NCBI RefSeq assembly: GCF_004359215.1
Contig: NC_090613.1
Location: 6,392,035 to 6,456,034 of the forward strand
DNA: 64,000 nucleotides
Direction of reading: 5' to 3'
Source of the DNA: Bremia lactucae
Lineage: Eukaryota > Oomycota > Peronosporomycetes > Peronosporales > Peronosporaceae
Under the pieces are notes generated by a model. It ran no database searches, was not told where the DNA came from, and worked only from the letters and a program-made list of their open reading frames with translations. Made by a program: the position numbers and the translations under genes. Positions 1-55,690 of the stretch are shown piece after piece. Within the stretch, counting starts at the first letter, position 1. Each line of letters opens with the position of its first letter.

Positions 1-1012
1 AGTGGTCAATAGAACTACGCCTTATGACCGACCTCTTGGCGGTATCATTGGCGAGTTTGATGCTAAAAGCGTGAGCGAGGCTCAACGCTTTGTGAATGAG
101 CGATTAGCCATCACACGTAAAGTCCGCGACGCAATGGCAAGCGCACAGGACAAGCAAAAAGAATATGCGGACCGAAATGGTCGCGAAAATAATGAGTGGG
201 TGAGAAAGTACTATTAGGTACTGCTACCCTACCTAAAAATGCAATTTCTGTACTACTTGGAGGTACTACGAAGTTGTTACCGCGTTGAATTGGGCCCTTT
301 ACGGTGGTAGAAGAGGTTGGAGACCTAAATTATAGGCTCACCCTTCCCCCGTATATGAAGACGCACCCCGTATTTTACGTGAGTCGTCTAAATCGGAATG
401 TTGACCCAAATGAGGTCACATATCCCCATCTTGCTAAGGAGACCAATGGTGACGCCGACTGTGAGTCGAGCGTCGTATGGGTGAGGGGGACGGTGAAGGC
501 GAAAGCTATTGGACCAATTCCTCTCTCCACGAACAGTACTTGGAGAGCGAGGGACATCACGCAATTAACGCGGATCCCTCAGCATTATCCTCTCAAATAG
601 GTCCAAGCAAGTTTTCAGGCGTTCATAACCCTGACGAGCCTTCGCTCGGACATCAACGAGATCCGAGGTCAGTCACGAGACTTGACCCTTGAGATCCGCA
701 ATACGTCGTTCAGCAGCGCTTAACGCATGCAACTAAACGGACGAAGGTAAGGCAGCCGCGAGTAGGTGGGCGAGATCGCCACTCCTACCGAGCGCTGCCT
801 GCACTGATGGATGCGGGTGGGAATCAGCGCTTCCTTGTTGGAAGGTTGCTTGCTCACTGATCGGTGAGGCAAAGATATCAGATCCTCGTCCAATGGAAAG
901 GTTACCCGAAGACTTTTGACTTTTGGGAACCGATCGATACCCTACGTATTGATGTGCCCGGCTTGGTTGCTGCCTATGAAAAGGAGCACCAGCTGAGGCC
1001 ACTTCGCTAGTC
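1..1012 (+). pseudogene. Family A copy 1: Ty3/gypsy integrase C-terminus and chromodomain
   Basis: This is the 3' end of a gypsy-type pol polyprotein entering from the left window edge. Positions 2-217 encode the region after the integrase core (starts NRTTPYDRPLG), the same peptide that ends the integrase ORF of copy A2 near 53474. After a frameshifted stretch, 304-600 encodes the integrase C-terminal fold (GDLNYRLTLPPYMKTHPVF). A chromodomain follows at about 820-1010, with the hallmark VQWKGYPKTFDFWEP and a tail ending LRPLR. Stops and shifts (for example TAG at 215 and TGA at 858) make this a pseudogene. In Ty3/gypsy elements this domain directs integration to marked chromatin; that role is family knowledge, not shown here. 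Confidence 0.85.
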
Positions 1013-1935
1013 TCAAATGGACTAGCAGAAGCAGCGTAGTGAGAAGAAACTGGGGGTATAGTACCACCCATGATTTTTTTTCACACGCAAACGGGCGAAA
1101 TTAATTCGCTGCGACCGCTATTTCATCGCATCGGAATGCGGATGAATGCGGCGCAGGAATTCCGCCTCGTATTGGTCGGGCGTTTCATTTGAACGCAACA
1201 CGACCGGGATCGGGAAAATACGCCCAAGCGATTTTCCCTGAGCCCTCCATGATTGAAAGACGCCATAATAATTATGTGCGTCTACAAGAGCGCGCTCTAG
1301 GAGCGACGCTCTTGACCCGTCTAAACAAGGCCATTTAGATGGAGGGGGCATCTTTGGAATGCCACCCGTCACATAGCCACGTTCTAAACGACTGGCTTGT
1401 GACACCGACTGAGCACATTCACGTGTCGTCGGCGGAGCTTTAAGCTCCGAATCCTCAATGTCAGAACCATTATGAATTATGGTCTGAGCATAAGGCGTTG
1501 TGGTTATACCCAACGAGAAAGCGGCTGCGCCTTTATGGGCAGCGCACTCATTACCTGTCGCTGCGCTTTCCAGTGCAGACGACGGGGCAGCATTCGTAAA
1601 TGATGCTGTCTCCATGTTGTGAGCCATGAGAGAAGTTTTGATGGGAATTAATGACGCATCATCATTCCTCATGAGCTCGTTGTCCGCATCACTACTATGA
1701 GGTGACGGCAACGGTGTCGACTCATTGTAGTCGACAATGAGCGACGGATCAACATCCACACTATTAAAGTGGGATGGATCCTATAGCCCTGTTTACGGGA
1801 CAGCAGCTGTGGCTGTCGGCGTTCGACTAAAGCATTTGACGCGGCCGGCGAATTGACGCGGCGCGTGCGCTTAGTGTGAGGTTCAGGAGGCGTCGTCGCA
1901 GACGACCCACCAACGTGGCCCCTTTTAGGTGGCAT
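733..1935 (-). CDS. Antisense ORF of family A, copy 1 (frameshifted)
   Basis: A minus-strand reading frame faces the pol gene and lies between its 3' end and the LTR. It starts at MPPKRGHVGGSS (ATG at 1935), has a basic patch (KRTRR) that could be a nuclear signal, then a Ser/Asp/Thr-rich stretch (DPSLIVDYNESTP...) and a better conserved block LLERALVDAHNYYGVFQ...EAEFLRRIHPHSDAMK ending at 1118. A frameshift lies near 1750. In the adjacent frame the antisense reading continues from 1071 to 733 through the sense chromodomain. The same protein is encoded in the same relative position by copies A2 (51632-53031, plus) and A3 (minus). I do not recognise a database family. It is not gag, because it is antisense and distal to pol. 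Confidence 0.6.
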
Positions 1936-7749: not shown

Positions 7750-8255
7750 ATGATCGCGAGTTTGTTAAACTCGAATGAACCTCTTGTTGCGGAGTCATCT
7801 TTTGGTAACTTCGACAATTGTTATGATGCTGAAGCTATGAACATGCATCACCCGGAACGAATTGATCGTAAATATAACTTCGAAAGGATTGTTGGCCTTA
7901 AATCTATATACGCCGAAGGGAGAGGGGCCGCAATACTTTGCGTCTGAATCCCAAAATGAAACATGGGTTGCCCGCTAAGGGCAATCATCCGAAATAACCA
8001 ACTAACATACACAATTCCGCTGTTTGACTCTTTCAGGCTTCACAGCTCTGGTGAGGACGAAGCGAATTCTTCATCGGCGCCTTTTCGGCATCGATGTTAC
8101 ACTAACAAGCGTTGAAAGGATTAACATTTCTGGTTCTAAACTTGGGATATTTTGTACAAAGTTACGAAGCGTCGGCCGTGAGGCATTGCTAGACAATCTG
8201 GTTACGGTGCGTGACAGGTTTGAGAAGATATCTGTAGTTGGTGCACACTAATAGA
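7750..8255 (+). CDS. Antisense ORF of a B-like element (family G fragment)
   Basis: Two open stretches (7750-7947 and 8024-8251) lie downstream of, and opposite to, the minus-strand integrase fragment at 8640-9480. The second contains ALVRTKRILHRRLFGIDVT and REALLDNLVTVRDRFEKIS. It aligns by eye with the antisense ORF middle domain of B (REAWLQRLKAI at about 11567) and of E2 (DVWLGKLDAFRERFEKRAV). Position, strand and sequence all agree with the antisense gene of the related families. Homology is moderate and the frame is broken. Confidence 0.45.
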
Positions 8256-10329: not shown

Positions 10330-10666
10330 TATAACGGTGCACTGCCGACTTGTACTGCTTCAGTGCAAGTGGTGCCTCACGTACACTAACTAGTACGTGC
10401 AGAGGAAGACTCTCATCCAAACACTTGCTTTAAAGAGGATTTAAAGTAAGCTGTATTGATGTAATTAAGATTTTCTGTTTTCTATCTATTTATACTAACG
10501 ACTGGACCGCGGAGAAAGTAGATACAATGGTCTATATTTACCAATTGATAAGCTTTCCGAATGTTACTATGTAAAGTAATATTCTTCAAATGTTATCTTC
10601 CTTAAAGATAATATTTTAATTAAGAACCTTAAGGTTTAATTTCATGTAACGATACATCCCGTTACA
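10330..10666 (-). repeat. 3' LTR of the minus-strand B element
   Basis: Read on the minus strand it starts TGTAACGGGATGTATCGTTAC, matching the LTR at 50436 (plus) and the one ending at 56192 (minus). It ends near TATAACGG at 10330. It is about 100 bp shorter than the other B LTRs. A purine tract (AGGGAGGGGTGG on the minus strand, 10667-10678) precedes it. Confidence 0.75.
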
Positions 10667-10743
10667 CCACCCCTCCCTAAAACGACAATCACTCTGATTG
10701 TCATTATATAAGGTGGTCACTATAAGACCACATAATTAAAAAC

Positions 10744-12555
10744 AATGTTGATTGGTCAGAACCATCTTTTTCAATCCTATCGCATGGCTAACAAGTCCAT
10801 GCGGCATGCGATAGTGCGGCGCCTTCGGCTGCGGTACACGCAGCCGCGAGCGACGCATTATTGTCTCTTGCGGCAGAAATTTCGTCTGCCGTAGTATCAT
10901 CTTCTTTCGAAGCACTAGCTGCTGCGGGTGCACGTGGTGAGTCACAACGTGAGTGCAATCCCTCTTTGGAGGTCGACTATGAATGCGAGTCGGACGAGAT
11001 GGCCGACTCGGGGACAGCAGAACAATCGCTTGATCGTCGTCAGACGGCTGACTATGAGCCTTTGAATGAGGGGGCTCAATCGGATAGACGTGCTTATAGC
11101 GTTCGCGCTCGCAATAGCATGTGTGGTCTGACGATGAGGATTCTTCATCGCCAGCACCGTCTTTCGCGCCGTCACCCGCACTTATATCTGTGCGTGGTGA
11201 TGACGATGGCGTAAGCCATCGTAATAAAAGTTTTTGTAGTACCCCTGCTTCAGTGGATACCACTCAGGGGAGTGCAGACAATAAAATGTGCTCGTCTTGC
11301 CCTTGAGAAGAAGCCGTGGCTTTTGTCCGATTGGCTATTCAGTAAATTGTCTGGAGAGACTACTCCTCACAATATGTATCCCTTATTTATTGCGACAAAG
11401 CTGCACGGCCTTCGTCCCAGCGCAAAGAATTTTCGCGCTGAGGAAGGTTTTTATCTCGATGGTTTTCTTGAGCATCGATGGTATAGTTGCCACAACAAGC
11501 GAGATAAAAGCCCATTGATGCGAGACTGAAACGTGTTTATTTGCAATGCCAAAGACATTCGACGCGAAGCCTGGCTTCAAAGACTCAAGGCGATTCGCAT
11601 TAAGTTTGGAAACGAAATTTAACCGGTTCAAGATTAAAAGATTTAAATTGCATCGATTGTCTCGTGGGGCAGGACTTTCATGCCTCACGTGGGGTGGTCC
11701 CTGTCCGTGTTGTATCTACAGCACGAAACGAGTGTAAGAGGGTGTTTGATTCCTTTCTTCGCCCTGATGAAAAGCTCGCATCTGCGCGATGCGAATGACG
11801 TTTTGCAATCGATTCACAAGCGCCAGGCGCTCTTGTCGTCCGCCGGACCTTCTGATCCATCGAATGGGTCACGTCATACTGATGGATGAGGCCCTCAACG
11901 TCAACAAATAGCTAGGAACGAGGTTCCCAGCTGTCATGCGAAGGTGGATAACCGCGCCAGCGAACAAGATAACTCGTTCGCTGTCTCTTCACATCACGGT
12001 GGTTTAGAATACGTTCCACAAGGAAACGTTGACCATCGTGTGAATCCTTCAATTGTTGTGACGGGGGAGGTGAAATTAGATCCGAACCGTGTGTCGGATT
12101 TAGAGTCGAAGAGTGACAAACTCGACCACTTCCTCCATGTATTGGAGAATGGTCTTGATCACGAGCACGGCAAGCGTCGCTCGTTAGATCAGACGGTGCA
12201 GGCTCATCATATCGAACGGCTGGAAGAGTGTTCGAAGAGTGCGTACTCCATGTTGGAGTACGAAGGGAAATATCACGATGTTCGTGATGAGCTGTCGTCA
12301 GCTCATCGCAGTGTCGAGGATCTTCGAAACCTGCATGAGAAACTCCAGATTCAACATGAGAATCTGGTCCGCGATCACAACAATCTTTTGGGGATTCTTG
12401 AAAAGGGTGGTCAGATCCGTCCTCGAAAGAAACCGCATTTTGATGGTAAGGGCGGAGCCAACCAACGTAAAACGTACGATGCGTTCGCATCCTACGTGGC
12501 GATTCTAATGTGTACGCGTTGCCTCTGCAATGCAGTACACGGAATGGCCCTGTAA
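10744..12555 (+). CDS. Antisense ORF of family B with C-terminal coiled coil (frameshifted)
   Basis: The frame starts MLIGQNHLFQSYRMANKSM just inside the 3' LTR, shifts near 10815, and continues as AAEPSAAVHAAASDALLSLA then an acidic Ser-rich stretch (DYECESDEMADSG). A conserved middle follows (EKKPWLLSDWLFSKLSGETT, 11290-11520). The last part (11944-12555) is a 203-codon open frame rich in heptad-like repeats (VSDLESKSDKLDHFLHVLEN, YHDVRDELSSAHRSVEDL), a strong coiled-coil candidate. The same protein is encoded antisense in E1 (50357-48784) and, in diverged form, in E2. It overlaps the sense integrase C-terminus and chromodomain by about 0.6 kb. Function unknown. Confidence 0.65.
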
Positions 12556-12685
12556 ACTTGGGAAGTAGCTCACTTCTAACTAAATTAGTGACTTCACGCT
12601 TAGGTAAGTTTACCGTACAGAGAAGTACTAGGTCATTAAATTTAATTGAAAGAATATTTGCATTTCCATGTTTATTGCATTCCAT
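11912..12685 (-). pseudogene. Family B integrase C-terminus and chromodomain
   Basis: A 257-codon open frame holds the integrase C-terminal fold (TGPFRVLHCRGNAYTLESPR, then HRTFYVGWLRPYHQ), a long Asp/His/Ser-rich linker, and a chromodomain ([32 protein letters not shown]). Sense and antisense frames are both open across 11944-12555. The linker is unusually long for this junction, and that is exactly the part opposite the antisense coiled coil. Confidence 0.85.
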
Positions 12686-12937
12686 TTTTGACAGTTCATT
12701 GCGCTAGCAATGGAATCCTGTACGAAACGGACTACTGATTCTCGAGCCAGCAGAGATTATTCTGCTGACTCATTTGTTTTGGCCTTTCCAGTGCGCTTTG
12801 TGCGCACTGCCATAATCTTTCTCATCTTCGATGTCGAAGCAATCGACATCGACATTATTCGCGTCGTAGGTAACGACGACGTGTGATGAGCATGAAACAG
12901 AAACGATATTGCTCGTGCGTGTCCACCTCCTCTTAAA

Positions 12938-23850: not shown

Positions 23851-24830
23851 GGTAACTCCGTGAAATAATTTCAGATCAAGATTTCCCGTCTCACGACGGA
23901 GTTTTGCAATCCGTGTTCAAATGACTTGGATCACGGTTGAAAATGTCAGCAATTGATGATCCTGAAGGACATTATCAGACAGAAGATGCAAATCGTTTTC
24001 TCGAAGAAATACTTCGCGATAACTCCACTCGTTTACTAGTAAAAGCGAGCTTTTGCCGATGGCGAGTTTTGCCATCAACAAATCAGTGCATGCTTCCGCA
24101 ATGCATAAAGCGTTTTTCGTGAATGGCTTATGCCATCCACCTTGTTTGGGAGTGGGAGGGGACTCGCTCGAAAAAACAACAATCATGCTCTTGCTCACCG
24201 CACATTGACTCTACGATCAATGCGAAGGACACCAATGTTGAATCAATCAAAATTGAAGGGGACAAACTGAACGATAGCAAAAAGGCTATTACTGACTTTT
24301 ATAACGATGCTGAGAAGACTCTGAATCGAGAACAATATTATGAGTGCGAACAATAATGCTCACTGATGAGAAAAATGACATCTAAGCAGTGCGCTTAGGT
24401 CACACTGAAGACAAAAATAAAGCCGAGTCATCGGATGAGCTAGAGAAGCAGTGGTCCAGGCTGAACGGATTCCATCGCTGATGCATGGAGTGACAGAAAT
24501 AGGATTTGACAAAAATGGAAAGCAAACGTTCTTTCATTTATTGCCGATGATCAAGTCATACTGGCTACGGTAAATCCACCAAAACATGAAGTTACGAATG
24601 TGGTCAGTAATAAATAACTAGTCAGGTATATAAGCTTATTTCGTGTACTGCACCGCCAAGGCAATGCGTACACGATCGAGCTGCCGCATAGGACGCGTAC
24701 GCATCCAACAGTTTTTGTCGGGCGTATCCGCCCGTACCAACAGTACGAGGCTTCTTCCGATTCTGAATCACTTCGGAATGGTCTAAGGCGTCTGCCAAGG
24801 CCTGATGGTTTCAAGCTAAAGCATGATATT
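23851..24830 (+). pseudogene. Element E2, second part: integrase core end and C-terminus
   Basis: Resumes the integrase (LRRSFAIRVQMTWITVENVS-type broken text, then FLEEILRDNS), then 24123-24356 (MAYAIHLVWEWEG, the PFYxNGL-equivalent region and acidic linker). At 24640-24760 the integrase C-terminal fold is clear: FRVLHRQGNAYTIELPHRTR and THPTFFVGRIRPYQQYE. Frameshifts and stops are present. Confidence 0.75.
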
Positions 24831-25871
24831 GCTGGGGTAAAGTATGGTTCTCACAAACCAGACATTCCACTTCACCTTCAAATATGAGATCTTTTGACGA
24901 GCTGTCACCAGCTTGTTTTGAAGGTTATGATATTTACATTCTTTCGCCAGGTGATCAGTCGCATCTTGCGCACATTTTTTCAACTGGTCTGGGGAAATAT
25001 AATCGACCGTCATCGCTAACTCGCGGCGACGGGATCGCTCGTAATCAATGTCCTCCCGTGAAATCTTGAAGAATGCGATCCAAGTCACGATGTTGACTCG
25101 GGATCGGCGAACTGGGTGTACTCGAGTTTCCTTCCCCCTCCACATCCATTGACGGATTCGAGTAATGTAAAGCGTTTCCTTGCTGAACGTTTATCGAACC
25201 ACCGTGAGGTGAAAGGAGTTCGAACGAGTTATATGTTTCGTTGGCCAGGGTATCCACCCTCACATGATAATTGAGATCCTAGTTCCCAACTGATGGTGGA
25301 CGTTCCGGGTTTTTGTCCAACAGTACGACAAGACACATCCTCATCGACGAGGAATTCATCAGAGAACGAGCGCTCCGCGCACGTTAAAGGATTGGAGGTT
25401 CTCAATCCCTTCGCGCATCTCACAAGAGATGAGCGTTCTCCAGTGGGGATCTATAAGGCATTTTACCCCCTTAAGGACATGACCTGCACCCATATAGCAA
25501 CATGGACATGAGTTCCCTCACGAGAATCAATGTATCACTGCCTCTCTAGGCAATCAAAGCAACTTAGAACTTGCACCTACGACGGCTCGTTTTTCGAACC
25601 GCTCACGGAAAGCATCAAGTTTGCCAAGCCAGACGTCGCGGCCTATATTCTGCACATTCTGTTCAAATGTTTAGAAAAAAGGAAAGATATACTTTGCCCG
25701 CTTACAAGTGTACCACGGTTGCCGGAAAAACATCGATAAAGAATTCTGTTTTGTCATCAACAGGCTTTTGAAGGCTGGATTAGTCCAACAGCGGAATATG
25801 GTACCGATCGTTGGTCATAAGATGACGCCGACCCGGCGCAGTCACCTTGGGAGTAGCAGGTGACTTATACC
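24816..25871 (-). CDS. Antisense ORF of E2, distal part (coiled coil and middle)
   Basis: The minus frame 25145-24816 (109 codons) reads YERSRRRELAMTVDYISPDQ, LKKCAQDATDHLAKECKYHN and LQNKLVTARQKISYLKV. It is collinear with the B coiled coil (HGKRRSLDQTV, LEECSKSAYSMLEYEGKYHD, VRDELSSAHRSVEDL). Upstream, near 25650-25570, GRDVWLGKLDAFRERFEKRA matches the B middle REAWLQRLKAI. In the same interval the sense strand has several stops. The N-terminal part lies beyond the C2 insertion, at 32407-32187. Confidence 0.55.
25150..25310 (+). pseudogene. Element E2 chromodomain
   Basis: Reads VKRFLAERLSNHREVKGVRT then SYMFRWPGYPPSHDN, stop, DPSSQL. This is a chromodomain like those of B and E1 ([17 protein letters not shown]), with the central Ser-Trp altered to a stop. 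Confidence 0.75.
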
Positions 25872-26342
25872 TGTAGCAGAGCCACCTTGCTCGTCAAGTC
25901 AGAGGAACTTATTGACTGAAAGAGTCTTTAAGTTCTATAGAACTAATAGGTTTAGCAAATCAGGGTAGCTTAGTGAATCCTAGTTCAAGGGATTCAGGGG
26001 TTCGTAGAACCAAGTTGCAACTAGTTCCCGAGAGTATGTCCTTCAAAAGACTTCTGTCTCTCGCAGAAAAATGCGCGAGCCTTCAAAAAACACTACACGC
26101 TTCAAGATCTAAAGGGAAACTAAAGACTATACTATTTTTTAAATTTAAAACCCTACCCTAGCTGAATTTAAATAGATTTCGGCCGCCAGATTTATATCTG
26201 GCGGTTAAACATATGTTACCCATAATAAATGATGTTTTTGGAATTTTGCGATTAACTATTCAAAAAAGAATTAAAGGGTGTTTTAACCATAAAGTAAACG
26301 TACTATAACAACGATTTACCGACCGAAGTGTGCCCCATTACA
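25872..26342 (-). repeat. 3' LTR of C copy 2
   Basis: On the minus strand it begins TGTAATGGGGCACACTTCGG and ends GGTGGCTCTGCTACA. It shares the CCGCCAGATATAAATCTGG block with the other C LTRs. Confidence 0.85.
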
Positions 26343-26448
26343 CTTACGGATCAGACTGTTGACACCTAGTGACAATATTCGCATCATTTCCTCATTGAGG
26401 TTGGAATATAAATAGCTAACCATTTAGTTGTGTTTTGCATTACTTTGT

Positions 26449-27668
26449 CTAATGACACCTAAGCGTGAGTCACAGACTCTTGGCGCCTTCCTCGGCGATA
26501 AGGAAATGGTGAACTATAAAAGTCACACACCATTGGGGGATGAAGAAAAAGAGCGTCTCTTCTACACCCCTCCTCGCGTTGACGAACGTCGGCGGCTCCC
26601 GAATCAGTTTCCAGAACGTGGTGCCGCAAACATTTTAGCTCCATTTCCCAGGACACTGGACTCTGAGTCCAACTTTATCACGAACCCGCTTTATGAAGAG
26701 CAACAGCAGGCAATCTTCATGGAGGGACTAGCTCGTCGTCGAGCTACAGAGACCTTGTGAAAGCAAAAGCTCACTGTGCATATCGATTTATGACGAAGAG
26801 CGCCTCACAGAGGTTACGGGTCTCAGCTTGGCCATCTGGACTTCCGGATCCAAGGCGAGGGCGTTAGAGGACTCGCTGCTTTTGATGCTCTTCATGAGCG
26901 ATACCTTACGCCAAAAATAATGCCGTGAGGTCAGTATTTGACGCGTTCGCCTGATCAGGCCCGTGGGATTTCGGTGACTTCAAGGAGGGAAATCCCGATC
27001 ATCTGGTCTATTAAAGAGTCTGCAGATGTGGCTGAGATTCGTTTGGAACGGAAGCTACGCTTTGATTTCGCTAAGCTTAAGGCCAAAAGCCAGCAACGTC
27101 CGGCGTGTATGCCTTAAAACGAGGGTAAGTCTAGCCAGCACTCCAGTGCTTTGGTTACACGCACAACCGCCGCACTGAGGCTATAGATCCATTTATTATC
27201 ATCTTTTTGGTGAAAAGCGTCGTTTGAATCATGTTGACCTGATCGCGGCGCTCGAAACGACAACGGCGCACGGGACATCTTGCCGAATTGAACTCCAATA
27301 ATTTTTTCCAAGAGGGGTACCCAAGTTACTTCACCAGATACTGGTATTAGCCCTTGCGACGACGTCACTTCACAAACTTGTCCACATGAAACTAAAGGTT
27401 CCCTCGTCATCGAGCAACGCGGGAGGGGGCCCAAATCGTGGTGGAAGTTTTCAATGCTCTAAAGAACGAGTTGCAACTTCTTCGTGAGGGCTTTGCTCGG
27501 ATTGAGGGTTCCTTTGACGCGGTCCAAAATTGTCTCTTAACGTTGTCAACAACCTTGTTTACAGGGCCAGCTGGAAATCCTGGTGAGGATGCAGCAATCT
27601 GCGGCATGTCCGCCTGTCTCGGCGCACGCAACTCCAAGTCCACGTGGGAAATGTTCCGTATGGCTTAA
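26449..27668 (+). CDS. Antisense ORF of family C, copy 2 (broken)
   Basis: Starts MTPKRESQTLGAFLGDKEMV and is open to 26760. After frameshifts it reads FDALHERYLTPKIMP (about 26885), RLERKLRFDFAKLKAKSQQR (27040-27110), SPDTGISPCDDVTSQ (27325-27380) and KNELQLLREGFARIEGSFDA (27465-27530). Copy C1 encodes matching text on its antisense strand (ALQEQYLTPKVM, NTSPDTGIGPYDDVAFRVS, KHEVQLLRDILARVKSSFET). From about 27180 on it overlaps the sense chromodomain and integrase C-terminus. Function unknown; the C-terminal part has coiled-coil character. Confidence 0.55.
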
Positions 27669-28840: not shown

Positions 28841-28892
28841 ATCGTCTAGTGACGCAGCTGTTCCGATGGAACAGCTGCGTCACTAGACGATT
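28840..28892. repeat. Perfect 25-bp palindrome in RT of C copy 2
   Basis: Arms 28840-28864 and 28868-28892 are exact reverse complements (AATCGTCTAGTGACGCAGCT... on both strands) around the 3-nt loop GAT. The minus-strand arm encodes the RT segment FNRLVTQLF. The other arm replaces the codons that should follow, so the palindrome arose by copying one arm in reverse. Confidence 0.95.
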
Positions 28893-28894
28893 CA

Positions 28895-30000: not shown

Positions 30001-30099
30001 CCAACAACAATGCTTTCAGCATTCAGCGAATCGTTATTATAATGAGTATCACTTGACGGAGTACGTGCCGTTCCACTCCCTTTTTCTAAGTCACGCTCC

Positions 30100-30640: not shown

Positions 30641-30643
30641 AGT

Positions 30644-31692
30644 TTAATCTCCTAGAGGTTTAACAGAGTCTATGTCTTTCCCAGTAGGGCGCTTCGCACC
30701 TACTGGGTATCGACATTTTCCCGCACCGTGCCAGATTTCTGGTATAGGTCGGAGTTGGTGCTCTTTCCAGCTTTCCGCGTATTTCGTAGGGGACAAGCCG
30801 GACGTAAGGTTTCCGTGCATCCGCACATAAACATCTACGGATGTTTGATGCTGTTCAACAGCTTGGAGTGCTTCTTTTCCCTCCTCAGCGAGGTTTAGAT
30901 CTATGAGTTCTGGTCTAGCCGATACCGAAGTGCTCAAAGAGCTTGTACGGTAAACAGGCGTGCCAAAATGAGCGGGCCTAATGTCGAATTTAGCACATAG
31001 CGCTATGGCAACTGCCTCCTCGAAACTAGCACGATGGAAATGAAATGATACCGTTCTGGCAACTTCTCATTGAGACCCCCATGAAAACCGTTACGACAAT
31101 TGCTTCTTGCACCAGGTCTAAGATGCAAAGAGAGTTCTCCATTCCTGGGCATAGTTTCCTAGGCATTGTTTACCCTGACGAGTCGCTATTAGCCGTGATC
31201 GCATACGAGAAGCCTGATCAGGCGATGCAAACATGCAAGTCATTTGCTGTTTTAGCAAAACCCATGAGGGAAAAGTGACGTTTATCGACGTGCTGCACGA
31301 GAGTGCCCATGCCATGGCTCGACCTTCGAGCTTGGAAATGGTTATGGCCACTTTTTTCGTTCTGTTAGGAATAGGGCCGGATCTATGGAAGGCTTTATCG
31401 GCTTGATTAAAAAAGAAGGTTTTCTCCCTCTTTACCCTCAAATGTCCAAAGAAGGGCGGGGCTTGGGCTCTAGATGAGGTACCGAAATGTACGTAGTTGG
31501 TATAGATGCCGTCAAGTGGTTCTGTACCTGTCCGAGAAGACAGAATTCGTATTGCATAAAGGCTTCAAGCCTTGCATCCAGAATCTCTGGTCCCTGTGAC
31601 ATGATCATTTTAATATGTTGTAGCCCAAACAAGGTTTTGCGATTCTTAAATGCTGCGCGTTTCGTCTGTGAAATGTCTGGAAACGTTTCCAT
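30644..31692 (-). pseudogene. C copy 2 gag
   Basis: 31692-31438 starts METFPDISQTKRAAFKNRKT and contains RLEAFMQYEFCLLGQVQNHL. 31441-31118 continues with KKVAITISKLEGRAMAWALS, LLKQQMTCMFASPDQASRMR and GNYAQEWRTLFAS, a typical gypsy capsid region. 30937-30644 is the C-terminal tail, where a zinc knuckle is expected but degraded. A frameshift near 31118 separates the parts. Confidence 0.8.
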
Positions 31693-31733
31693 TTCAGCAG
31701 AGGCTTAGTTTAATAAAGACTCAGGCGTAGATT

Positions 31734-31750
31734 TACTACGATTGCTACCA
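31734..31750 (-). other. Primer binding site of C copy 2
   Basis: TGGTAGCAATCGTAGTA (minus strand) starts 2 bp after the LTR end. Copy C1 has TGGTAGCACTCGTAGTC in the same place (about 45444-45460). Confidence 0.55.
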
Positions 31751-31752: not shown

Positions 31753-32186
31753 TGTAGCGGAGCTCACTTAGTTTTATAGAACTAGTAGATTTAACAACTC
31801 AGGGAGTCGTACAAGCTAGTTTACCTCGGTGAATCTTTATTCAAGGGATTCTAGGGTTTATTAACCAAATGGGAACTAGTGCCCGAGAGTATGTATCTTA
31901 GAAAGTCTTCTGTCTCTCACAGATCGGCGCGCAACTCTTAGGAAGGCACTAGACGCTTTAAGATTAAATTGGGAAATGAACTTTATTCCATTATATAAAC
32001 CTAATACCTTATCCTAGCTAAAATTAAATAGATTTCGACCGCCAGATTTAGATCTGGCGCTACCACATATGATACCCATAATGAATGAATTTAAGTGATT
32101 AACTATTTAAAACAAATAAAAGGGTACTTTCCCTTTTAATTAAATCTACCGCAGCAACAACACCAGATGAAGTGAGCCCCATTGCA
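31753..32186 (-). repeat. 5' LTR of C copy 2
   Basis: On the minus strand it begins TGCAATGGGGCTCACTTCAT and ends GAGCTCCGCTACA. It is followed 2 bp later by TGGTAGCAATCGTAGTA, the primer binding site. Confidence 0.85.
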
Positions 32187-32407
32187 GTACCAGTCACGTC
32201 CAATGGGAATAGAAGGGGACGTTTTCCCTCAGTAGACACATAAGCGTCTTGTGAAACATTCGCATCGCTAACAGCTGCGCTGAGCCGTGCAGCTGCTAGC
32301 TTTGCTGCCTCACAGGCGACGCGCACGGGTTTTGAAACGCAATTGAAAGTCGGAATCATAAAAAAGTGGTATTCAACAAAGATAGACATAATACTTCTCT
32401 CTGTCAC
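32187..32407 (-). CDS. Antisense ORF of E2, N-terminal part
   Basis: The frame starts MTERSIMSIFVEYHFFMIPT and contains VSKPVRVACEAAKLAAARLS and DANVSQDAYVSTEGKR. It compares with the E1/B antisense N-termini ([20 protein letters not shown]). It begins about 45 bp inside the E2 3' LTR and is cut by the C2 insertion at 32186. Confidence 0.5.
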
Positions 32408-35789: not shown

Positions 35790-38090
35790 GGCCTTGCCAA
35801 TTATTTATGCAATATAGTGAAAAATACGCTGATATGGCTAGGCCATTATCTTTTCTCCTTAAAAAGGATACAGAATAGTGCTGGACTAGCACCGAACATA
35901 ATGCTTTTCGAGCAGTAAGGATAGTCTTATTTATGCCCCGATTCTGGCACTGCCAAACCCAAATTGGCCTTTCAGTGTCGTCTGTGACGCATCGAATTTC
36001 GAAGAACTACCCAGTTCATGACAAAAAGTCACTTGCTATGAAGTATGCTCTAGTCAATTTCAGAATTCATCTGCTCAGCTCTAAGCCGTTGTGATATTTA
36101 CAGATCACGCGTCATTACGCACGGCAACTAAGTCACCCCATCTCTCACGAAGAATGGCCCGACAGCTATCCTTTTTCGCGAAATACAACTTCGAGGTGAA
36201 ATATAAGCCCGGCCAGCAGAATGCTTTGGCCGATGCGTTATCACGCAGGCCGGATTATGAGCTCTCTCATTTAACGACTATCTTTTCGCCTATTCCTGAA
36301 TTACTCCGTTCGACTTACGCCAAGGATGAATAGTGTGTCGCTCTGCTACGAGCTCTACGGAACTCTGACTCAGGTATTAATGCCGGCACGTTTGCGTGCA
36401 AGGTTATATCATTTTCTATCGATAGCGACCTGTTGCTTTATTGCACAGACACCGCAGACCCTCCGCGTGTCGTTGTTTCTCATGATGAGGATTTGAAGTA
36501 CCGAATCCTCTTTGAGGCACACGATACCGTCCTTGGTGGTCATCTCGGTTGAGAAATGACCTACGGCTCTGTAAGCCAGATTTATTGGTGGCCCAACCTT
36601 TTATAATGGGTCAGCACATATTTTCGCACATGCAAAATTTGCCAACGGGTTAAATCCTCGGCGCATGCTGCTGCGCCACTGGCGAGCCTTCTCGTCCCCA
36701 TAGCTTGCTGGGAGTCCATAAGTATGAATTTTGTTTTCGGACTGCCGAAAGATTCAGCCGTTAACTCCAGCATAGTGGTCTTTGTTGACAGACTGAGCAA
36801 AATGGCTCACTTAGCGGCCGTTCCGGATTCCATTGATGGTGAAGGTACAGCTCAGCTGTTTATTGATCGCGTGTTTCGATAACATGGTTTGCCAGTGGCA
36901 ATTGTCTCTGATCGGGACTCCCGTTTCATGAATAAATGCTGGAAATCAACCGATCCTCAAACTTGGTAAATCAAATGCCAGAGTGCTTGGCACCAGATTG
37001 GATATGTCCACTGCGGACCATCCGCAGACCAATGGTCATACTAAACGTGCCAATCGCGTCGAAGACGTTTTACGAAGCGTGTGTGCTCAGACACCAAAGC
37101 GCTGGAGCTCAATGCTCCCAGTGAAGGAATTTGCGTTAAATAACGCTGTACATGCCTCTAACGGCTATACTCCGTTCTATGTCAACGGTCTCACCCACCC
37201 ACGCGTTCCATTAACGATAACTCTGCGTGGTTCAGGGCTTGGTGGGGGAGAATTAGCCGACAGGCTTGCTGATATCAGCCCTGTTACCGTTCGGGAACAA
37301 GTAAGCGAGTTTCCCGCGACGCGATTAAGTGTCTTAAGACATGTAAGGGATACGATGGCTGATAGCCAAGACAAACAAAAAGAACGAGCAGATGCCATAG
37401 GCGGAAGCTGCATTAATTCTTATATGGTCGGAGACCGAGTTTTACTAAACGCTAAAAATTTACCTACCAACTTGGTTTCCGCGGTCTTCAAGACCAAATT
37501 GCGCCCGAGCTTTATTGGACCATTTACGGTCGTGGACAAGAAAGGCCTAGCTTATACGCTAAACCTTCCTAGCAAGCTGCGTACACACCCAGTGCTCTAC
37601 GTTGGCTTGCTTAAGCCATATCGGGGCCATTCCTACGTGGACCTGAAGGCGCTTGCGCCGAGAGAGGCGGTCGTGCCGCAGATTGCTGCATCCTCACCAG
37701 GATGTCCAGCTGGCCCTTTAAACGAGACTGCTGATGCACCAGCGTTGAAAGACGGTCCCGAACCGTCTCAAAAGAGCTCTTAACCCGAGCAAGGATATCA
37801 CGAAGAAGTTGCACCTCGTGCTTCAGAGCATCAGATGCCTCCACCGAGATTTTGGCCCCTCTCGCGCTGCTTGATGCGCGAGGGAGCCTTCAGTTTCACG
37901 TAGAGAAACTCTAAAAGCGACGTCGTCGTAAGGGCCAATACCAGTATCTGGTGAAGTGTTTAGGGTTACCCTCTTCTGAAAACTCTTGGGAGTTCGAGGT
38001 ACCTCTTCGGCAAGATTACCCATACGCCATTGATGTTTTTGAGCGCGAAGCTCAGGGTCAACTCGCATCAAACGACGCTTCCCACCACTA
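35790..38090 (+). pseudogene. C copy 1, distal half: RT connection, RNase H, integrase, chromodomain
   Basis: Starts in the RT connection (GLANYL..., ADMARPLSFLLKKDTE). RNase H at 36001-36260 reads DHASLRTATKSPHLSRRMAR and KPGQQNALADALSRRPDYE. The integrase zinc region is CKICQRVKSSAHAAAP (about 36629). In the core the first catalytic Asp is Asn (SISMNFVFGLP) and the third acid is Lys (HTKRANRVEDV), with VSDRDSRF intact between them and a frameshift near 36950. 36983-37783 is open through the C-terminal fold (RPSFIGPFTVVDKKGLAYTL, HPVLYVGLLKPY). A chromodomain follows at 37890-38060 (KGQYQYLVKCLGLPSSENSW). It cannot integrate. Confidence 0.85.
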
Positions 38091-38830
38091 AACGTGGGAT
38101 TAGGTGTATATATAGAATCAGTACGGCTTCGATCCATGGTTGTACGGTCAACCGAAACACTGAATTTATCGGCTAGGCCTTTCTTCGTTTTGTGGCATAA
38201 ATGCCGAACGTAACTGGCCTTCGGCCTTAAGCTTAGCGTAATCGAAGTAAAGTTACCAATCCAAACCAGCATCATTCCTATCTGCAGACTCTCTGATATT
38301 CCAAATATTACGAAGTCGGCGGGCCCGGTGAGCCCAGTTCTCAAATGAGACTTCGTTTTCACTCCTTGTTTCGTTTGGAAACAAAACGATCGAAAGTTCC
38401 CTCATGGAGGTCACCGAAGCCTCATGGGCTTGATCACGTAAACGCGTCAGATACAGGCTTCGCGTCATTACCTTTGGCGTAAGGTATTGCTCCTGAAGAG
38501 CGTCGCGGGCAGCGATCTCCTCCGGCGTCCTCGCCGGGTCACCGTAGATCCAGGGGTCCAAGCTGTGGCCTGCTTTCTCTTTGAGACGCTCGTCCGCACT
38601 AAGCGGAGTGAATTTGTATTAACTATGAGCTTTAGCTTTCGCTATATCGGCAGCTCGACGACGAACTCATTCCTCTATGAGGATTGTCTGCTCTTGCTCT
38701 TCATCGAGCGGATTCGTAATGATGTTGGACTCAGGGTCCCGTCATGCTCAATGCAGTTAAGACATCAGCGGCACCACGTTCTGGGAACGGATTCGGGGCC
38801 CGCCGACGTTCATCCGGAGGAGAAGGCGTG
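37611..38830 (-). CDS. Antisense ORF of family C, copy 1
   Basis: Minus frames 38561-38253 (MDPWIYGDPARTPEEIAARD, ALQEQYLTPKVMTRSLYLTR), 38362-37823 (YTPNPTFSGGKRRLMRVDPE, NTSPDTGIGPYDDVAFRVS) and 37844-37611 (KHEVQLLRDILARVKSSFET) form one broken protein between the 3' LTR and the end of pol, overlapping the sense chromodomain. Copy C2 encodes the same blocks in the same order. Upstream (38830-38561) the N-terminus is frameshifted. The C-terminal block has coiled-coil character. Confidence 0.55.
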
Positions 38831-48439: not shown

Positions 48440-49320
48440 GTGGACCGGCAGAAACGGAACGCAGACAAACTTGGAAGAGCAAATGTTCCTTCATTTAAAA
48501 TATATGATCAAGTACAAATGTCTACGGTAAACTTACCTAGGCATGTAGTCACTAACGTGGTAGTAGTAAACTACTCCCCAAGTTCATTGGGCGATTCCGT
48601 GTACTGCTTCGCAGAGGCAGTCCGTACACAATATAGTTGCCACGAAGGATGCAAAGGCATCCTACGTTTTACGTTGGTCGACTCAGCCCGTACCATCAGT
48701 ACGCGGGTTTTCCGCGGACGGATCTGAAGACCCCTTTCAAGAATCCCCAGAAGATTCTTGTGATCACGACCCAGACTCTCATGTTAAGTCTGGAGATTCT
48801 CATGCCGAATCAGAAGTTCCTCGAAATTGCGACGAGCTGACGACAGCTCGTCATGAAGAGCGTGATGTTCCCGTTCGTACTTCAACGTTGAATACGCACT
48901 TTTCGAACGGTCGTCCAACCGTTCAATACGGTGAGTCTGCACCGTCTTTTCCAACGAGTGACGCTTATCACACTCGTGATCAAGACCCTCCTCCAATACA
49001 TGGAGGTAGTGGTCGAGTTTGTCGATCTTCGACTCTAGATTCGACACACAGGTCGGATCTAATTTGCCCTCCCTCACCAAAACCATTGGTCGATTCCCAC
49101 GGTGGTCAACGTTTCCTTGTGGAGCGCATTGTAAGTTACCATGATCTGAAGGGGCAGCGAACCATTTATCTTGTCGCTGGCGCGGTTATCCACCTTCGCA
49201 TGACAGCCGGGAGCCTCGTTCCCAGCTGGATGTTGACGTTGAGGGCCTCATCCGTCAGCATGACGAGACCCATTGAATCAGAAGGTCCATCGAAAAACAC
49301 GCGCCCCTGGCGCCTGTAAA
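48440..49320 (+). pseudogene. E1 integrase C-terminus, linker and chromodomain
   Basis: STVNLPRHVVTNVVV (about 48521) and FYVGRLSPYHQYAGFPRTDL (48651-48710) give the C-terminal fold. A long Asp/His/Ser/Thr-rich linker ([20 protein letters not shown] in frame) follows, then [20 protein letters not shown] (about 49110-49170) of a chromodomain, with the [17 protein letters not shown] core frameshifted. The linker lies opposite the antisense coiled coil. Confidence 0.8.
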
Positions 49321-50357
49321 TCGATTGCAAAATGTCAATCGCATCGAGCATCTCGATAGAGCTGCGAGCTCTTCCCAAGGCGAAAAAAATAGAATAAACA
49401 TCCTCTTTCACCCGTTTTGTGTTGTCGACACAAACGGACAGGGAATACCTCACGAGACAACCGACGCAGTTAAAGCTTGCACCGTTTGAAGTTCGTTTGT
49501 CAAAGTTCATGCGAATCGCGTTAAGTCTTTGAAGCCAGGCTTTGCATCCAATGTCTTTGACATTGCGAATACATGCGTTCCAGGCTTGTCAACGATCATT
49601 TATTTCGCTTGTTGTTGCCTCTATGCCATCGATTCTCAAGAAAAGCACAAGATGAATTTCCTTCTCACCGCGAAAATTCTTTGCGCTAGGTGAAGGCCGT
49701 GTAGCTTTGTCGCAATAAATAAGGGATATTTATGGTGTGGAGTAGTCTTTCCAGACAATCTTTTCAGAAGCCATTCGGGCAAAAGCCACGGCTTCTTCTC
49801 AGGGTTAAGACGATACATTTTATATTCTGCACTCCCCTGAGGGGTACCCACTGAAGCAGGGGTACTACAAGAACTTTTATTACGATTACTTACGGCATCG
49901 CCATCACCACGCACAGGGATATGTGCGGGTAAGGGCACGGTAGACGGTGCTGGCGATGAGAAATCATGCTCATCGTCGGAAATACGCATGCTATAGCAAA
50001 CGCTATTAGCATCTATCCGATTGAGCCCCCTTAATTCGAAGGCTCATAGTCAGCCGCTTGACGACGTTCAGGCGACTGTTCCGCTCACCCCGAGTCGGCC
50101 ATCTCGTCCGTCTCGCATTCATAGTCGACCGTCAGAGAGGGGTCACACTGACGTGGTGTATCACCACGTGCACCTGCAACATCTTGCGTTGCGGGAGAAG
50201 ACAATAATACGGCAGATGAAATGTTTGCCGCAAGAGACAATAATGCGTCGCCCGTGGCTGCATGTACCGCAGACGAAGGTTCCGCACTAATTGCTACCCG
50301 CATGGACTCGTTGACCATGCGATAGAACTGAAAGGGATGGTTCTGACCAATCAACAT
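48784..50357 (-). CDS. Antisense ORF of E1 with C-terminal coiled coil (frameshifted)
   Basis: Starts [20 protein letters not shown] at 50357, about 80 bp inside the 3' LTR. It continues through [15 protein letters not shown] and [19 protein letters not shown]. 49989-49636 has [20 protein letters not shown] and [20 protein letters not shown]. 49510-49166 has [20 protein letters not shown] and [20 protein letters not shown]. 49086-48784 is the coiled coil ([40 protein letters not shown]). All blocks match copy B in order. Function unknown. Confidence 0.65.
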
Positions 50358-51631: not shown

Positions 51632-53031
51632 ATGCCACCTAAAAGGGGCCACGTTGGTGGGTCGTCTGCGAAGACGCCCGCTCAACCTCACGCTAAGCGC
51701 ACGCGCCGCGTTAATTCGCCGGCCGCGTCTAATGCCTTAGTCAAACCGCCAACAGCTACTGCTGCTGTCGCGTTAACAGGGCTAAACAATATAACCCACT
51801 TTAACAGTGACGATGCTGATCCGTCGCTCATTGTCGACTACAATGAGTCGACACCGGTGCCGTCACCTCATAGTAGTGATGCGGACAACGAGCTCCTGAG
51901 GAATAATGATGGCGCATTATTGCCCATCCATACTTCTCTCATGGCTCATAATATGGAGACAGCAACATTTACGAACGTTGTCTCGTCGTCTGCGCTGGAT
52001 AGCGTAGCGACAGGTAATGAGAGCGCTGCCCATAAAGGCGCAGCCGCTTTTCCGTTGGGAATAGCCACAACGTCTTATGTTCAGACCATAATCCATAATG
52101 GCTCTGAAAGAGAGGATTCGGAGCCTAAAGCTCCGCCGACAAGCCGGCAAGCCAGTCGTTTAGAACGTGGCATATCTCTGATGCCCCGTCCATCTCAATC
52201 GCCTCGTTTAAAAGGGCCAAGAGCGTCGCTCCTAGAGCGCGCTCTTCTAGATGCATATAATTATAATTGCGTCTTTAAAATCATGGAGGGCTCAGTGAAA
52301 ATCGCTTGAGCGTATTTTCCCAAGTACGCTAAACCGCTTTTCCCTGAGCCCTCCATGATTTGAAGACGCGATAATAATTATGTGCATCCCGGTCGTGTTG
52401 CGTGAAATGAAACGCCCGACCAATACGAGGCGAAATTCCTGCGCCGCATTCATCCGCATTCCGATGCGATGAAGCAGCGGTTGCAACGAATTAACTTCAC
52501 CCGCTAACCTTTGAAAGAAATCCTGGGCGGTACTGTACCCCCTGTTTCTTCTCTTCTAGTCCATTTGAGACTAGCGAAGAGGCCTCAGCTGGTGCTCCTT
52601 TTCATAGGCAGCCACCAAGCCGGGCACATCCATACGTAGGGTATCGATCGGTTCCCAAGAGTCAAAACTCTTCGGGTAACCTTTACATTGGACGAGGATC
52701 TGATTCCTTTGCCTCACGGGGCGGTGGGCAAGCAACCTTCCAAAAAGGAAGCGTTAATTCCCAACCGCATCCATCAGTGCAGGCGGCGCCCGATAGGAGA
52801 GGCGATCTCGCCAACCTACTCGCGGTTGCCTTACCTTTGTTCGTTCAGTCACAGGCGTTTAGCGCTGCTGAACGGCGTATTGCAGCTCGTCAGGGTTATG
52901 AACGCCTGAAGACACGCTTGGACCTCTTTGAGAGGATAATGCTGAGGAACCCGCGTTATTCGCGTGATGTCCCTCGCTCTCCAAGTCCTGTTCGTGGAGG
53001 GAGAAATCGGTCCGATAGCTTTTCGCCTTAA
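51632..53031 (+). CDS. Antisense ORF of family A, copy 2
   Basis: ATG at 51632, MPPKRGHVGGSSAKTPAQPH, basic KRTRR, then a Ser/Asp/Thr-rich region and RASLLERALLDAYNYN to 52309. A foldback duplication (52250-52388) then breaks the frame. RRIHPHSDAMKQRLQRINFT is recovered at about 52443-52503. From 52777 the frame AAPDRRGDLANLLAVALPLF, then YERLKTRLDLFERIMLRNPR, ending in SPSPVRGGRNRSD, continues opposite the chromodomain and integrase C-terminus. Copy A3 keeps a longer coiled coil here (GRIADLEGQVSRLTSDLYDV). It is collinear with copy A1. Confidence 0.6.
52250..52388. repeat. Foldback inverted duplication in the A2 antisense ORF
   Basis: Arms 52250-52314 and 52325-52388 are near-perfect reverse complements (for example TCATGGAGGGCTCAG against CTGAGCCCTCCATGA) around a 10-nt loop. 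Copy A1 has a single arm at this place (1215-1285), so the second arm was copied from the first. Confidence 0.9.
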
Positions 53032-53260: not shown

Positions 53261-54470
53261 TACAGAATTGCATTCTTAGGTAGGGAAGCAGTACTTTATA
53301 GTGCTTTTCCTCCCACTCTAAAGCGTTCAATATTTTTGCGACCATTTCAATCCGCATATCCTTTTTGCTTGTCCTGTGTGCTTGCATTTGCGTCACGGAC
53401 TTTACGTGTGATGGCTTATCGTTCGTCCACAAAGCGTTGAGCCTCGCTCACGCTTTTTTGGCATCAAACCCGCCTATGATACGCCGAGAGGTCGGTCATA
53501 AGGCGTAAATTTATTGACCACCGCTAAACTGGCAGGGTCACTAAGGCAAGTTTTTGTCGTTGAGATGATACCCTCATGGGTCATCGTCATATTGACGAGA
53601 CTATGTCCCTCTTTCTCACCGAGCACAGTGAAGGGCCCTCCCCCACTAAGACTCGGGCTGCTCACAAATGAGACTGGCGTCCGAGGATGGCGCAGTCCGT
53701 TTATATAAAACGGTGTCTCACCCGTAATGGCGTAGACACTGTTATTTATAGCGAACTCCACAAATTGCAATTGCTTGCTCCACTCTTTGGGAGTTGCTAT
53801 CGTGCGAAAGACATCCGCCACGACCGAATCGGCACGTTCTGTTTCGCCATCGGTCTGGGGATAATCTGCAATCGACATGTGGAGCTTTCTACCAAGCAGC
53901 ACAAACACATGTCGCCAGAAACCAGACGTAAAATGTGGATCCCGGTCCGATCCTATGGACTCGGACATTCCGTGTAGTCGATGAACATGATCCAGGAACA
54001 AGAGAGCTGCCTCCTTGCCTGTGATCGATGTCTTACATGGTGCTAAATGCACCATTTTGCTCAGTCTGTCTACAAAGACGACTAGCCTTGTCCGACCCTT
54101 ATGATAGGGCGGCATGCCAAACATGAAGTCTAGACTTACAGACTTCCAACAGCTGGTTGGAATCGGTAGCAGCTTCAGTGGCGCACTGCTGGACGGTGCA
54201 GGCCTAATGAGCTGACACTGTTCGCAAGAGTGAATACAGTTGGCCACCCATCTATATAGGTGTGGCCACCCAAATTCCTCTGACACTCGTAAGAATGTCT
54301 TTTCACGGCCCAGATGCCCCACTAGGTGGCGCATGATGGAGCCCGTGAAGGATAATCAGCTTGAGTTCTGTGTCATGAGGCACATCGATTCTCAAGGGAT
54401 CACAAGGTGACAGCTTGCCATAACAACTATTTAGTACTGCTTGCCTACCTATAAGTTTCGTTAGGCTTTT
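53261..54470 (-). pseudogene. A copy 2: integrase zinc domain and catalytic core
   Basis: 54334-53474 is 286 codons open, the best-kept integrase here. The zinc region is HHAPPSG... (about 54330) and CIHSCEQC. The core has SVSLDFMFGMPPYHK (Asp), GSDRDPHFTSGFWR (Asp) and ADYPQTDGETERADS (Glu), so all three catalytic acids are present. It ends VVNKFTPYDRPLG, which continues as copy A1's left edge does. RT and RNase H are absent: the sequence stops near 54470 against the oppositely oriented copy A3. 53473-53261 is frameshifted. Confidence 0.85.
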
Positions 54471-54474: not shown

Positions 54475-55190
54475 GTGCTAAAAGAGGTTGAAGACCTAAT
54501 TATAGGCCTACCATTCGCCCGTATATGAAGACGCACCTGTATTTTACAGGGGTCGTCTGAAACGGTATGTAGACCCAAATGTTGTTACATATTCCCATCC
54601 GTCTAAGGAGACCCATGGTGACGCCAATTGTGAGTCGAGCGTCGTTCGGGTGAGGGGGACGGAGAAGGCGAAAAACTATCGGACCAACGCCTCCCACCAC
54701 AAACTGGACTTGGAGAGCGAGGGACATCACGCGAGTAACGCGGATTCCTCAGCATTATCCTCTCAAAGAGGTCCAAGCGAGTCTTCAGGCGTCCATAACC
54801 CTGACGAGCCTTCGCTCGGACATCATAAAGATCCGAGGTCAGTCGCGAGACTTGACCCTCGAGATCCGCAATACGTCCTTCAGCAGAGCTAAACGCCTGT
54901 GACTGAACGGACGAAGGTAAGGCAGCCGCGAGTAGGTGGGCAAGATCGCCACTCCTATCGGGCGCCGCCTGCACTAATGAATGCGAGTGGGAATCAACGC
55001 TTCCTTGTTGGAAGATTGCTTGCCCACCGCTCCGTGAGGCAAGGGTATCAGATCCTCGTCCAATACTTAAGGTTACCCGAAGAGTTTTGACTCTTGGGAA
55101 CTGATCGATACCCTACGTATTGATGTGCCCGGCGTGGTGGCTGCCTATGAAAAGGAGCCCCAGCTGAGGCCTCTTCGCTAGTCTCAAATG
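54475..55190 (+). pseudogene. A copy 3: integrase C-terminus and chromodomain
   Basis: In broken frames the plus strand gives the C-terminal fold (KEVEDL, LPFARI), the linker (GEGDGE, ERGTSRE) and a chromodomain near 54990-55180 that parallels 830-1010. It starts abruptly head-to-head with copy A2. Confidence 0.75.
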
Positions 55191-55690
55191 GACTACCAGA
55201 AGTAGCGTTGTGAGAAGAAACGGGGGGGGGGGTACAGTACTGTCGATGATTTCTTTGATGCGCAAGCGGGCGAAATCAATTCGCTGCGACCGCTGTCTCA
55301 TCGCATCGGAATGCGGATGAATGCGGCGCATGAATTCCGCCTCTAATTAATCATTTGTTTTATTTGAATGCAAAACGACCAGAATCGGGAAAATACGCAT
55401 AAGCGATTTTTTCTAAGCCTTCCATAATTTAAAGACACCATATTAGTTATGTGCGTCTAAAATAGCGCACTTTGGAAGCGACGCTCTTGGCCCGTTTAAG
55501 CGAGGCCGTTTAGATGGAGGGGGCGTCGGTAATATGTTACCCGTCATCACATAGCCACGTACAAAACGACTGGCTTGTGACATTGACTGAGCACGTTCAC
55601 GTGTCGTCGGTGAAGCTTTAAGCTCAAAATCCTATATATCAGAACCAAAAATGGATAATGGTCTATGCGATAGACATTGTGGTTTTACCC
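54603..55690 (-). CDS. Antisense ORF of family A, copy 3 (broken)
   Basis: 54974-54603 is open: MQAAPDRSGDLAHLLAAALP, then the coiled coil GRIADLEGQVSRLTSDLYDV / RAKARQGYGRLKTRLDLFER, ending in a Ser/Pro/Arg-rich tail (SFSPSPSPSPERRS). 55331-55113 adds RRIHPHSDAMRQRSQRIDFA. Upstream to 55690 the N-terminal half is heavily mutated. It is truncated at 55752 by the B-type LTR. Confidence 0.5.

Follow-up and report, generated by a model that had tools for sequence, protein, structure and literature searches.

An antisense accessory gene between pol and the 3' long terminal repeat in Ty3/gypsy retrotransposon families of Bremia lactucae

Positions 10744 to 12555 of a 64 kb window of the Bremia lactucae genome (the window being the whole stretch of DNA analysed, positions 6392035 to 6456034 of one contig) lie between pol and the 3' long terminal repeat (LTR) of a Ty3/gypsy retrotransposon, and carry the remains of a gene on the strand opposite pol. 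This copy belongs to a family termed B, and comparable genes are found in families A, C, E2 and G. From comparison of copies across the genome (115.9 Mb in 220 contigs) it is concluded that this is a real antisense accessory gene. The type of position is known from other elements, but the lineage that carries the gene and the protein it encodes appear to be new. The initial annotation of the window had proposed a conserved antisense gene between pol and the 3' LTR which overlaps the pol C-terminus, and this proposal is supported. For families B and C the gene is regarded as coding with high confidence.

The antisense frame outside pol is under purifying selection in families B and C, and this is the evidence that carries the conclusion. 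Copies were aligned to one open copy, and changes shared by at least 3 copies and at least 12% were separated from singletons, which represent decay after insertion. The shared changes were taken to come mostly from the time when the elements were active, and amino-acid-changing and silent changes were compared in all six frames as an odds ratio (OR). Copies which covered less than 60% of the reference piece were dropped (less than 55% in the test of the B start piece), as were copies at least 98.5% identical to a kept one, and aligned stretches were dropped below 66% identity (shared-change test, openness and controls), 68% (B start piece) or 60% (pairwise dN/dS, the ratio of nonsynonymous to synonymous change). 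The family C sample consists of the genome-search loci and window copy C1, and four diverged A copies entered the pairwise dN/dS and openness counts and not the main shared-change test. As the copies share a tree the sites are not fully independent, and the p values are approximate.

The antisense frame outside pol has an OR of 0.27 in family B (p=1.6e-4; 29 copies, 134 codons) and of 0.36 in family C (p=2.4e-7; 22 copies, 237 codons). The mirror pol-strand frame, whose codons share their variable position with those of the antisense frame, is the only one of the other five that moves (B 0.54, p=0.07; C 0.60, p=0.01). An earlier version of the test, which used codon positions only and fewer B copies, showed its clearest trend in C. 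Median pairwise dN/dS outside pol is 0.46-0.48 in B and 0.46-0.52 in C, the lowest of the six frames in every identity bin. The positive control, two stretches of C pol, gave ORs of 0.17 (p=6.7e-9) and 0.18 (p=3.2e-6) with mirror frames at 0.28 and 0.36; pol of family A gave 0.34 (p=0.06) with 14 shared changes only, and pol of family B gave 0.58 (not significant, 10 copies), its mirror frame being at 0.40 (p=0.026). The ORs of the B and C antisense frames fall beyond the range of the negative controls, for which LTR stretches were used. The dN/dS check outside pol that the initial annotation had proposed is therefore positive for B and C, but there is no signal in family A, in which the substitution test lacks power.

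An open antisense frame in the ancestors of families A and C, and very nearly so in that of B, is shown by counting the codon columns in which the majority of copies have a stop. The antisense frame of family A has 0 such majority stops in 255, 133 and 160 codons (548 counted, of which about 469 are distinct because the first two pieces overlap by about 79), and that of family C has 0 in 237+159 (396) codons. Outside pol, the five other frames of A and C hold 5 to 23 majority stops. Mononucleotide shuffles of the reference piece kept the frame open 0 and 46 times in 20000 for two pieces of A, and 0 times for C. Family A very probably once had an antisense open reading frame (ORF) of approximately 470 codons. 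The counts for family B are 1 in 208, 1 in 134 and 0 in 233 codons. The other frames of the 208-codon piece hold 4-16 majority stops, but two other frames of the 134-codon piece also have 1, so that openness alone does not single out the antisense frame there.

Along the antisense strand, the end of the 3' LTR is TTACA, after which comes a pyrimidine run that is read as the complement of the polypurine tract, and the alignment of the two LTRs of window copy C2 ends at the same TTACA. The first conserved Met lies, as counted by eye, about 78 nt past the LTR edge in family B (L001), about 130 nt in family A (L030 and L033) and about 110 nt in family C (C2 and L041). The frame of family C is also open upstream into the LTR in copies L041, L043 and L103, and the start in this family may lie inside the LTR; the 54-codon stretch concerned gave an OR of 0.42 in the shared-change test (p=0.098). 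On the other strand pol ends with the SH3_Tf2-1 domain, a linker of approximately 90-145 residues and a chromodomain, which scores 48.8 bits in B, 47.1 and 48.2 bits in C and 16.4 bits, under the cut-off of 25.1, in A. The antisense frame is roughly 440-580 codons long, depending on the copy. It overlaps the pol linker and chromodomain by about 480-700 nt, or about a third of its length, and has about 1 kb of space outside pol. A single pol-strand frame is open in the reference copies (f1 alone has 0 stops), and its phase relative to the antisense frame is the same for A, B and C. The features of an env-like third gene were looked for in this space and not found; every pol-strand frame outside pol has 2-15 stops in the four reference pieces, and the antisense protein pieces also have no strongly hydrophobic segment.

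Where the two genes overlap, the shared-change test gave 0.38 for the antisense frame (p=9e-5) and 0.86 for the pol frame in family B, and pairwise dN/dS for closer B pairs is 0.55-0.59 in the antisense frame versus 0.80-0.86 in pol. The corresponding ORs are 0.44 (p=0.027) and 0.73 in family A, in which one unread frame reaches 3.47 (p=0.017), and 0.57 (p=0.09) and 0.53 (p=0.038) in family C.

The gene is present in many copies. There are at least 40 matching places per family, and genome-wide protein searches returned at least 113 rows for B, 134 for C and 131 for A. Among the matches listed, in which the query copies are included and which cover the best-scored candidates, 9 of 113 (B), 11 of 134 (C) and 10 of 131 (A) are free of stops over at least 96% of the query. 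The longest stop-to-stop antisense pieces in single unaltered copies are 367 residues in B (L007), 341 in A (L029) and 310 in C (L049 and L065). Two of 20 B copies, chosen at intervals along the B match list, are open throughout the fetched stretch. A group of at least 17 rows of the E2 type looks like a recent burst, and its copy L069 has no ORF above 144 residues on either strand over 3 kb. A Ty1/copia-type reverse transcriptase ORF (RVT_2) is found at L013:2717-3337, beside an A copy with a shortened antisense region.

A number of results weigh against a conserved antisense gene. Family A outside pol gave ORs of 1.03 (30 copies, 35 shared changes) and 0.67 (29 copies, 27 shared changes), its pairwise dN/dS there is 0.77-0.80 and is not that of the lowest frame, and the B start piece is flat (OR 1.06, 12 copies). 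The LTR negative controls, three stretches with 18 frame tests, range from 0.39 to 1.42, and 15 of the 18 lie below 1, two of them nominally significant (0.39, p=0.023; 0.51, p=0.030); the baseline is therefore nearer 0.7 than 1, and an isolated p near 0.02 means little. In the C overlap the lowest OR belongs to an unread pol-strand frame (0.42, p=0.005; dN/dS 0.57-0.60), and pairwise dN/dS is 0.61-0.70 for pol and 0.83-1.05 for the antisense frame, a 3-pair bin aside. The most diverged B pairs have 1.28 in the antisense frame versus 0.40 in pol. A scan for core-promoter elements near the start (Inr-like motif) found nothing consistent. The copies were located with an antisense-region query, and the counts are accordingly counts of carriers alone.

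The state of two young groups belongs with these points. At least 17 E2-type rows have one score and one match span, and the sole fetched copy of this group, L069, has plus-strand antisense pieces of at most 144 residues. At least 11 C rows likewise have one score, and in each of these rows the frame searched contains a TAG and a TAA; in one of them the first 54 codons are open, so that both stops lie inside the gene proper. Both groups have apparently multiplied with no intact antisense gene in cis, so that an element can probably do without one. This fits supply of the protein in trans, as for non-autonomous elements, and it also fits a gene that is dispensable.

The initial annotation had also described blocks shared by the diverged families B/E1, E2 and G, which is borne out in part; one gene common to all families is not supported. 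With the B antisense frame outside pol as query, tblastn matched 12 of 12 E2/G subjects with 13 matches (best E 1.1e-28), the two best matches having 42-46% identity; the best match of the B mirror frame to E2/G was 1.8e-14, and other frames gave 1e-5 or weaker. For the overlap part several frames match between B and E2/G, with pol best (2.6e-39) and the antisense frame next (1.4e-32). Comparison of profiles built from own-family unaltered ORFs joined B to E2 with a probability of 99.9% (43% identity over 108 columns). The central block is thus common to B/E1 and E2, but the protein matches of G to E2 are weak (E 8e-4 and 0.01). Profile probabilities between A and C are 13.6-23.5% (overlapping pieces) with a short alignable block, which is only suggestive of kinship, and those between A and B and between B and C are under 10%.

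The proteins of A, C and B/E2/G are therefore not demonstrably homologous, and there are at least two, perhaps three, types of antisense protein. It is possible, if rather doubtful, that all of them descend from one ancient antisense coiled-coil regulator of chromodomain Ty3/gypsy elements, the C-terminus of which was overprinted on the integrase linker and chromodomain. The points in favour are the same place and the same phase antisense to pol in A, B and C, the C-terminal coiled coil and the weak profile match of A and C. If this were true, antisense regulators of the HBZ type would have had a separate origin in a further major lineage of eukaryotes.

Six antisense protein pieces were characterised, with isoelectric points of 8.0-10.5 and a maximum 19-residue hydropathy of 1.14, which leaves no strongly hydrophobic segment. 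Heptad-like stretches were detected by a simple in-house score in the C-terminal pieces of A, B, C and E2. Basic clusters, the motifs of which were picked by eye, recur in 26 (A), 16 (B) and 8 (C) ORF pieces among 2835 ORFs in all frames. No antisense piece matched Pfam or NCBIfam at the curated cut-off, and the sub-threshold matches are mostly to coiled-coil families; the best match in a search of PDB sequences had an E of 0.02 or weaker, and two scans of viral contigs found no relative. Membership of the plant TRP28 family is rejected, as PF04195 has no match above its cut-off of 26.2 anywhere in the genome and is not listed for the scanned pieces; the best match, 16.7 bits at C15:405097-405246, is outside the antisense-gene places among the matches listed. 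An HBZ-type bZIP protein is also rejected, as bZIP_1 scored 20.1 bits versus a cut-off of 27.6 in the E2 coiled-coil piece only, and it is not listed for the A, B and C pieces.

How such a gene might work can be proposed from its position, its protein features and analogy with known systems. On the strand opposite gag-pol these Ty3/gypsy chromodomain elements carry a gene for an accessory protein. The start of the gene lies just inside the polypurine tract, or in family C perhaps in the LTR itself, and its end lies opposite the integrase SH3-chromodomain linker. A separate mRNA would be made from an antisense promoter located within or next to the 3' LTR. The protein may act in trans and multimerise through its coiled coil, and its basic clusters may bring it into the nucleus, where it would regulate transcription or integration of the element; its mode of action would resemble that of HTLV-1 HBZ or of GENE23, the nuclear protein of maize Grande, with no kinship to either. 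As other copies can provide the protein, just as they provide gag-pol, broken copies could then spread. The suggestion of nuclear import comes from motifs picked by eye and from analogy, and this counts against the proposal; the nuclear regulator is given about an even chance of being the correct mechanism.

The antisense protein could instead be a structural factor in the cytoplasm, associated with particles or assisting gag. Basic coiled-coil proteins suit assemblies bound to nucleic acid, and the length of the frame is also counted in favour, but no gag or capsid family is matched at the curated cut-offs, and the two young groups have apparently been amplified with broken frames, although supply in trans also permits that. 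This alternative is considered unlikely. Less likely again is that the antisense RNA is the functional product, through double-stranded RNA or silencing control of the element, with the protein secondary to it. Such a role is discussed for plant elements in the part of PMC7264820 that deals with them, and any antisense transcript here would overlap pol. It does not, however, predict an excess of silent changes in one frame, in which the mirror frame is weaker and four frames are not significant, nor does it predict the conservation between B and E2 at the protein level.

An equally small probability is assigned to the capture of a host or foreign gene in a few lineages by transduction, with no use to the element. 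This would agree with the lack of relatives at cut-off in Pfam, NCBIfam and PDB sequences, and the origin of plant antisense ORFs is likewise given as unknown in PMC7264820, in its passage on their source. Against it stand the same place and overlap phase in A, B and C, among copies found with an antisense-region query, and the purifying selection seen in the shared changes of B and C. The least probable explanation is that the frame is a chance product or a by-product of pol codon constraints. In its favour, roughly one third of the frame is opposite pol, the overlap lacks antisense constraint in C and in diverged B pairs, and the LTR controls tend to fall under 1. It is largely rejected for B and C outside pol, as the signal peaks in the part without pol, and the frames of the pol strand in that part have 5-12 majority stops in A and C, the corresponding numbers for the middle piece of B being 1, 9 and 4.

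The window itself is filled with nested, decayed Ty3/gypsy elements and host-like genes, as determined by a domain scan of its ORFs. Antisense coding-like sequence is found at each place listed in the initial annotation, at roughly the coordinates it gave and with pol-strand proteins opposite or adjoining, and pairwise alignments confirm that copies within one family are collinear. The long ORF which it attributed to these copies is not found. All nine named copies are broken, with longest open antisense pieces of 81-235 residues (A1 220, A2 235, A3 169, B 221, E1 140, E2 124, C1 192, C2 103 and G 81), and the B copy at 10744-12555 read as one frame has 8 stops, the last one counted. The joining of broken pieces in the initial annotation is nevertheless essentially correct, since other copies contain related pieces in order.

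The broken gene of the B copy is located at 10745..12555 on the plus strand, its start codon being at position 10745 and not 10744. It is outside pol to about 11.77 kb, as estimated from the pol end of its relatives L005 and L007, and the remainder is opposite the chromodomain and the integrase SH3-chromodomain linker. The domain scan placed the C-terminus of its pol (SH3_Tf2-1 and a chromodomain cut by a stop) at 11912..12703 on the minus strand. E1 is a second family B copy, with a broken antisense gene at 48784..50357 on the minus strand; positions 10500-13912 align to 50603-47229 with 80% identity. The E2 gene, on the minus strand, is split by the C2 element, which is nested in the E2 element at 25871-32187; its start (73 residues open) is at 32187..32407 and its distal part, with the central domain and coiled coil, lies across the insertion at 24816..25871. 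The G fragment at 7750..8255 on the plus strand holds the central block of a B/E2-type antisense gene, with the two weak matches to E2 given above.

The family A antisense genes are all broken and are found at 733..1935 on the minus strand (A1), 51632..53031 on the plus strand (A2; its longest piece is 235 residues from stop to stop and 225 from Met) and 54603..55690 on the minus strand (A3). A pol integrase piece (H2C2 and rve, from the domain scan) adjoins A2 at 53474..54355 on the minus strand. A2 also contains a short inverted duplication at 52250-52388, and the alignments of most other A copies skip query positions 690 to 755.

In family C the broken antisense genes are at 37611..38830 on the minus strand (C1) and 26449..27668 on the plus strand (C2). 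A family C pol C-terminus (SH3_Tf2-1) is at 36932..37783 on the plus strand, and its relative L042 runs on through the chromodomain. The remaining C2 features are on the minus strand and comprise the 3' LTR at 25931..26342, the 5' LTR at 31770..32186, to which the former is 71% identical, and a gag piece at 31121..31564 (Retrotrans_gag, 25.4 bits). Two C-type LTR stretches in opposite orientation, 39086-39540 and 45463-45917, are 100% identical over 455 nt, in contrast to the 71% of the C2 LTR pair of the same family; this could reflect recent insertion, gene conversion or an assembly effect. Host-like ORFs of the window include a FYVE zinc finger at 34419-35561, an RME-8 N-terminus at 58822-60561 and a cytochrome b5-like domain at 60588-62438, and Rfam had no match within the window.

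Antisense genes adjoining the 3' LTR are known from plant, fungal and retroviral elements. A separate case with at least 113 places per family and a measurable signal of selection makes it testable which families keep the gene and what it does for the element, and also whether the pairing of a chromodomain with an antisense protein that has a coiled coil has come up repeatedly. Genome annotation may count such frames as host genes or miss them.

No antisense ORF of this kind was found reported for oomycetes in searches of the open-licence PubMed Central literature, and the word antisense is absent from the main text of a survey of oomycete retrotransposons (PMC5348765). The oomycete Chronos elements have, according to the section of that survey on them, a chromodomain after the integrase, as here; Chronos and Archon are defined there by an extra plant/archaeal-type RNase H, whereas the likeness to the present elements is drawn from the chromodomain alone. 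The pol C-terminal chromodomain by which chromodomain Ty3/gypsy elements are recognised scores above cut-off in B and C and below it in A. Two marks of an antisense additional ORF (aORF-3R) of LTR retrotransposons are present. One is the ORF itself, on the strand opposite gag-pol and in the interval from pol to the 3' LTR, which is found in other copies, those of the window being broken; the other is constraint at the protein level, which is found in B and C.

Antisense genes adjoining the 3' LTR are described in plant Retand/Grande and fungal Boty elements in the relevant parts of PMC11963269 and PMC7264820, and the likeness to plant Tat/Retand elements drawn in the initial annotation is apt for position; membership of the plant kind is not upheld, PF04195/TRP28 being below cut-off. 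Retand antisense ORFs with TRP28 are similar to the genes described here, and in the passage on them in PMC11963269 their function is given as unknown, with regulation suspected. Retand elements are, by the same account, non-chromoviruses with a pol-LTR region of 2.9-6.6 kb, but the elements studied here have a chromodomain-ended pol, about 1 kb of space and an ORF which runs opposite pol. The antisense gene brtn of fungal Boty, cited in PMC8365987 and mentioned in PMC7264820, is likened to them by position. HBZ of HTLV-1 is expressed, in the account of PMC10186651 drawn on here, from an antisense gene on the 3' LTR side and has a C-terminal dimerising region, to which the coiled coil is likened; it has a bZIP domain, whereas the zipper matches found here are sub-threshold, and it is an analogy of working and not of kinship. 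Maize Grande gene23, as presented in the parts of PMC11963269 and PMC7264820 on Grande, is an antisense accessory gene adjoining the 3' LTR, as here, with its own promoter and a nuclear product; the likeness is one of position.
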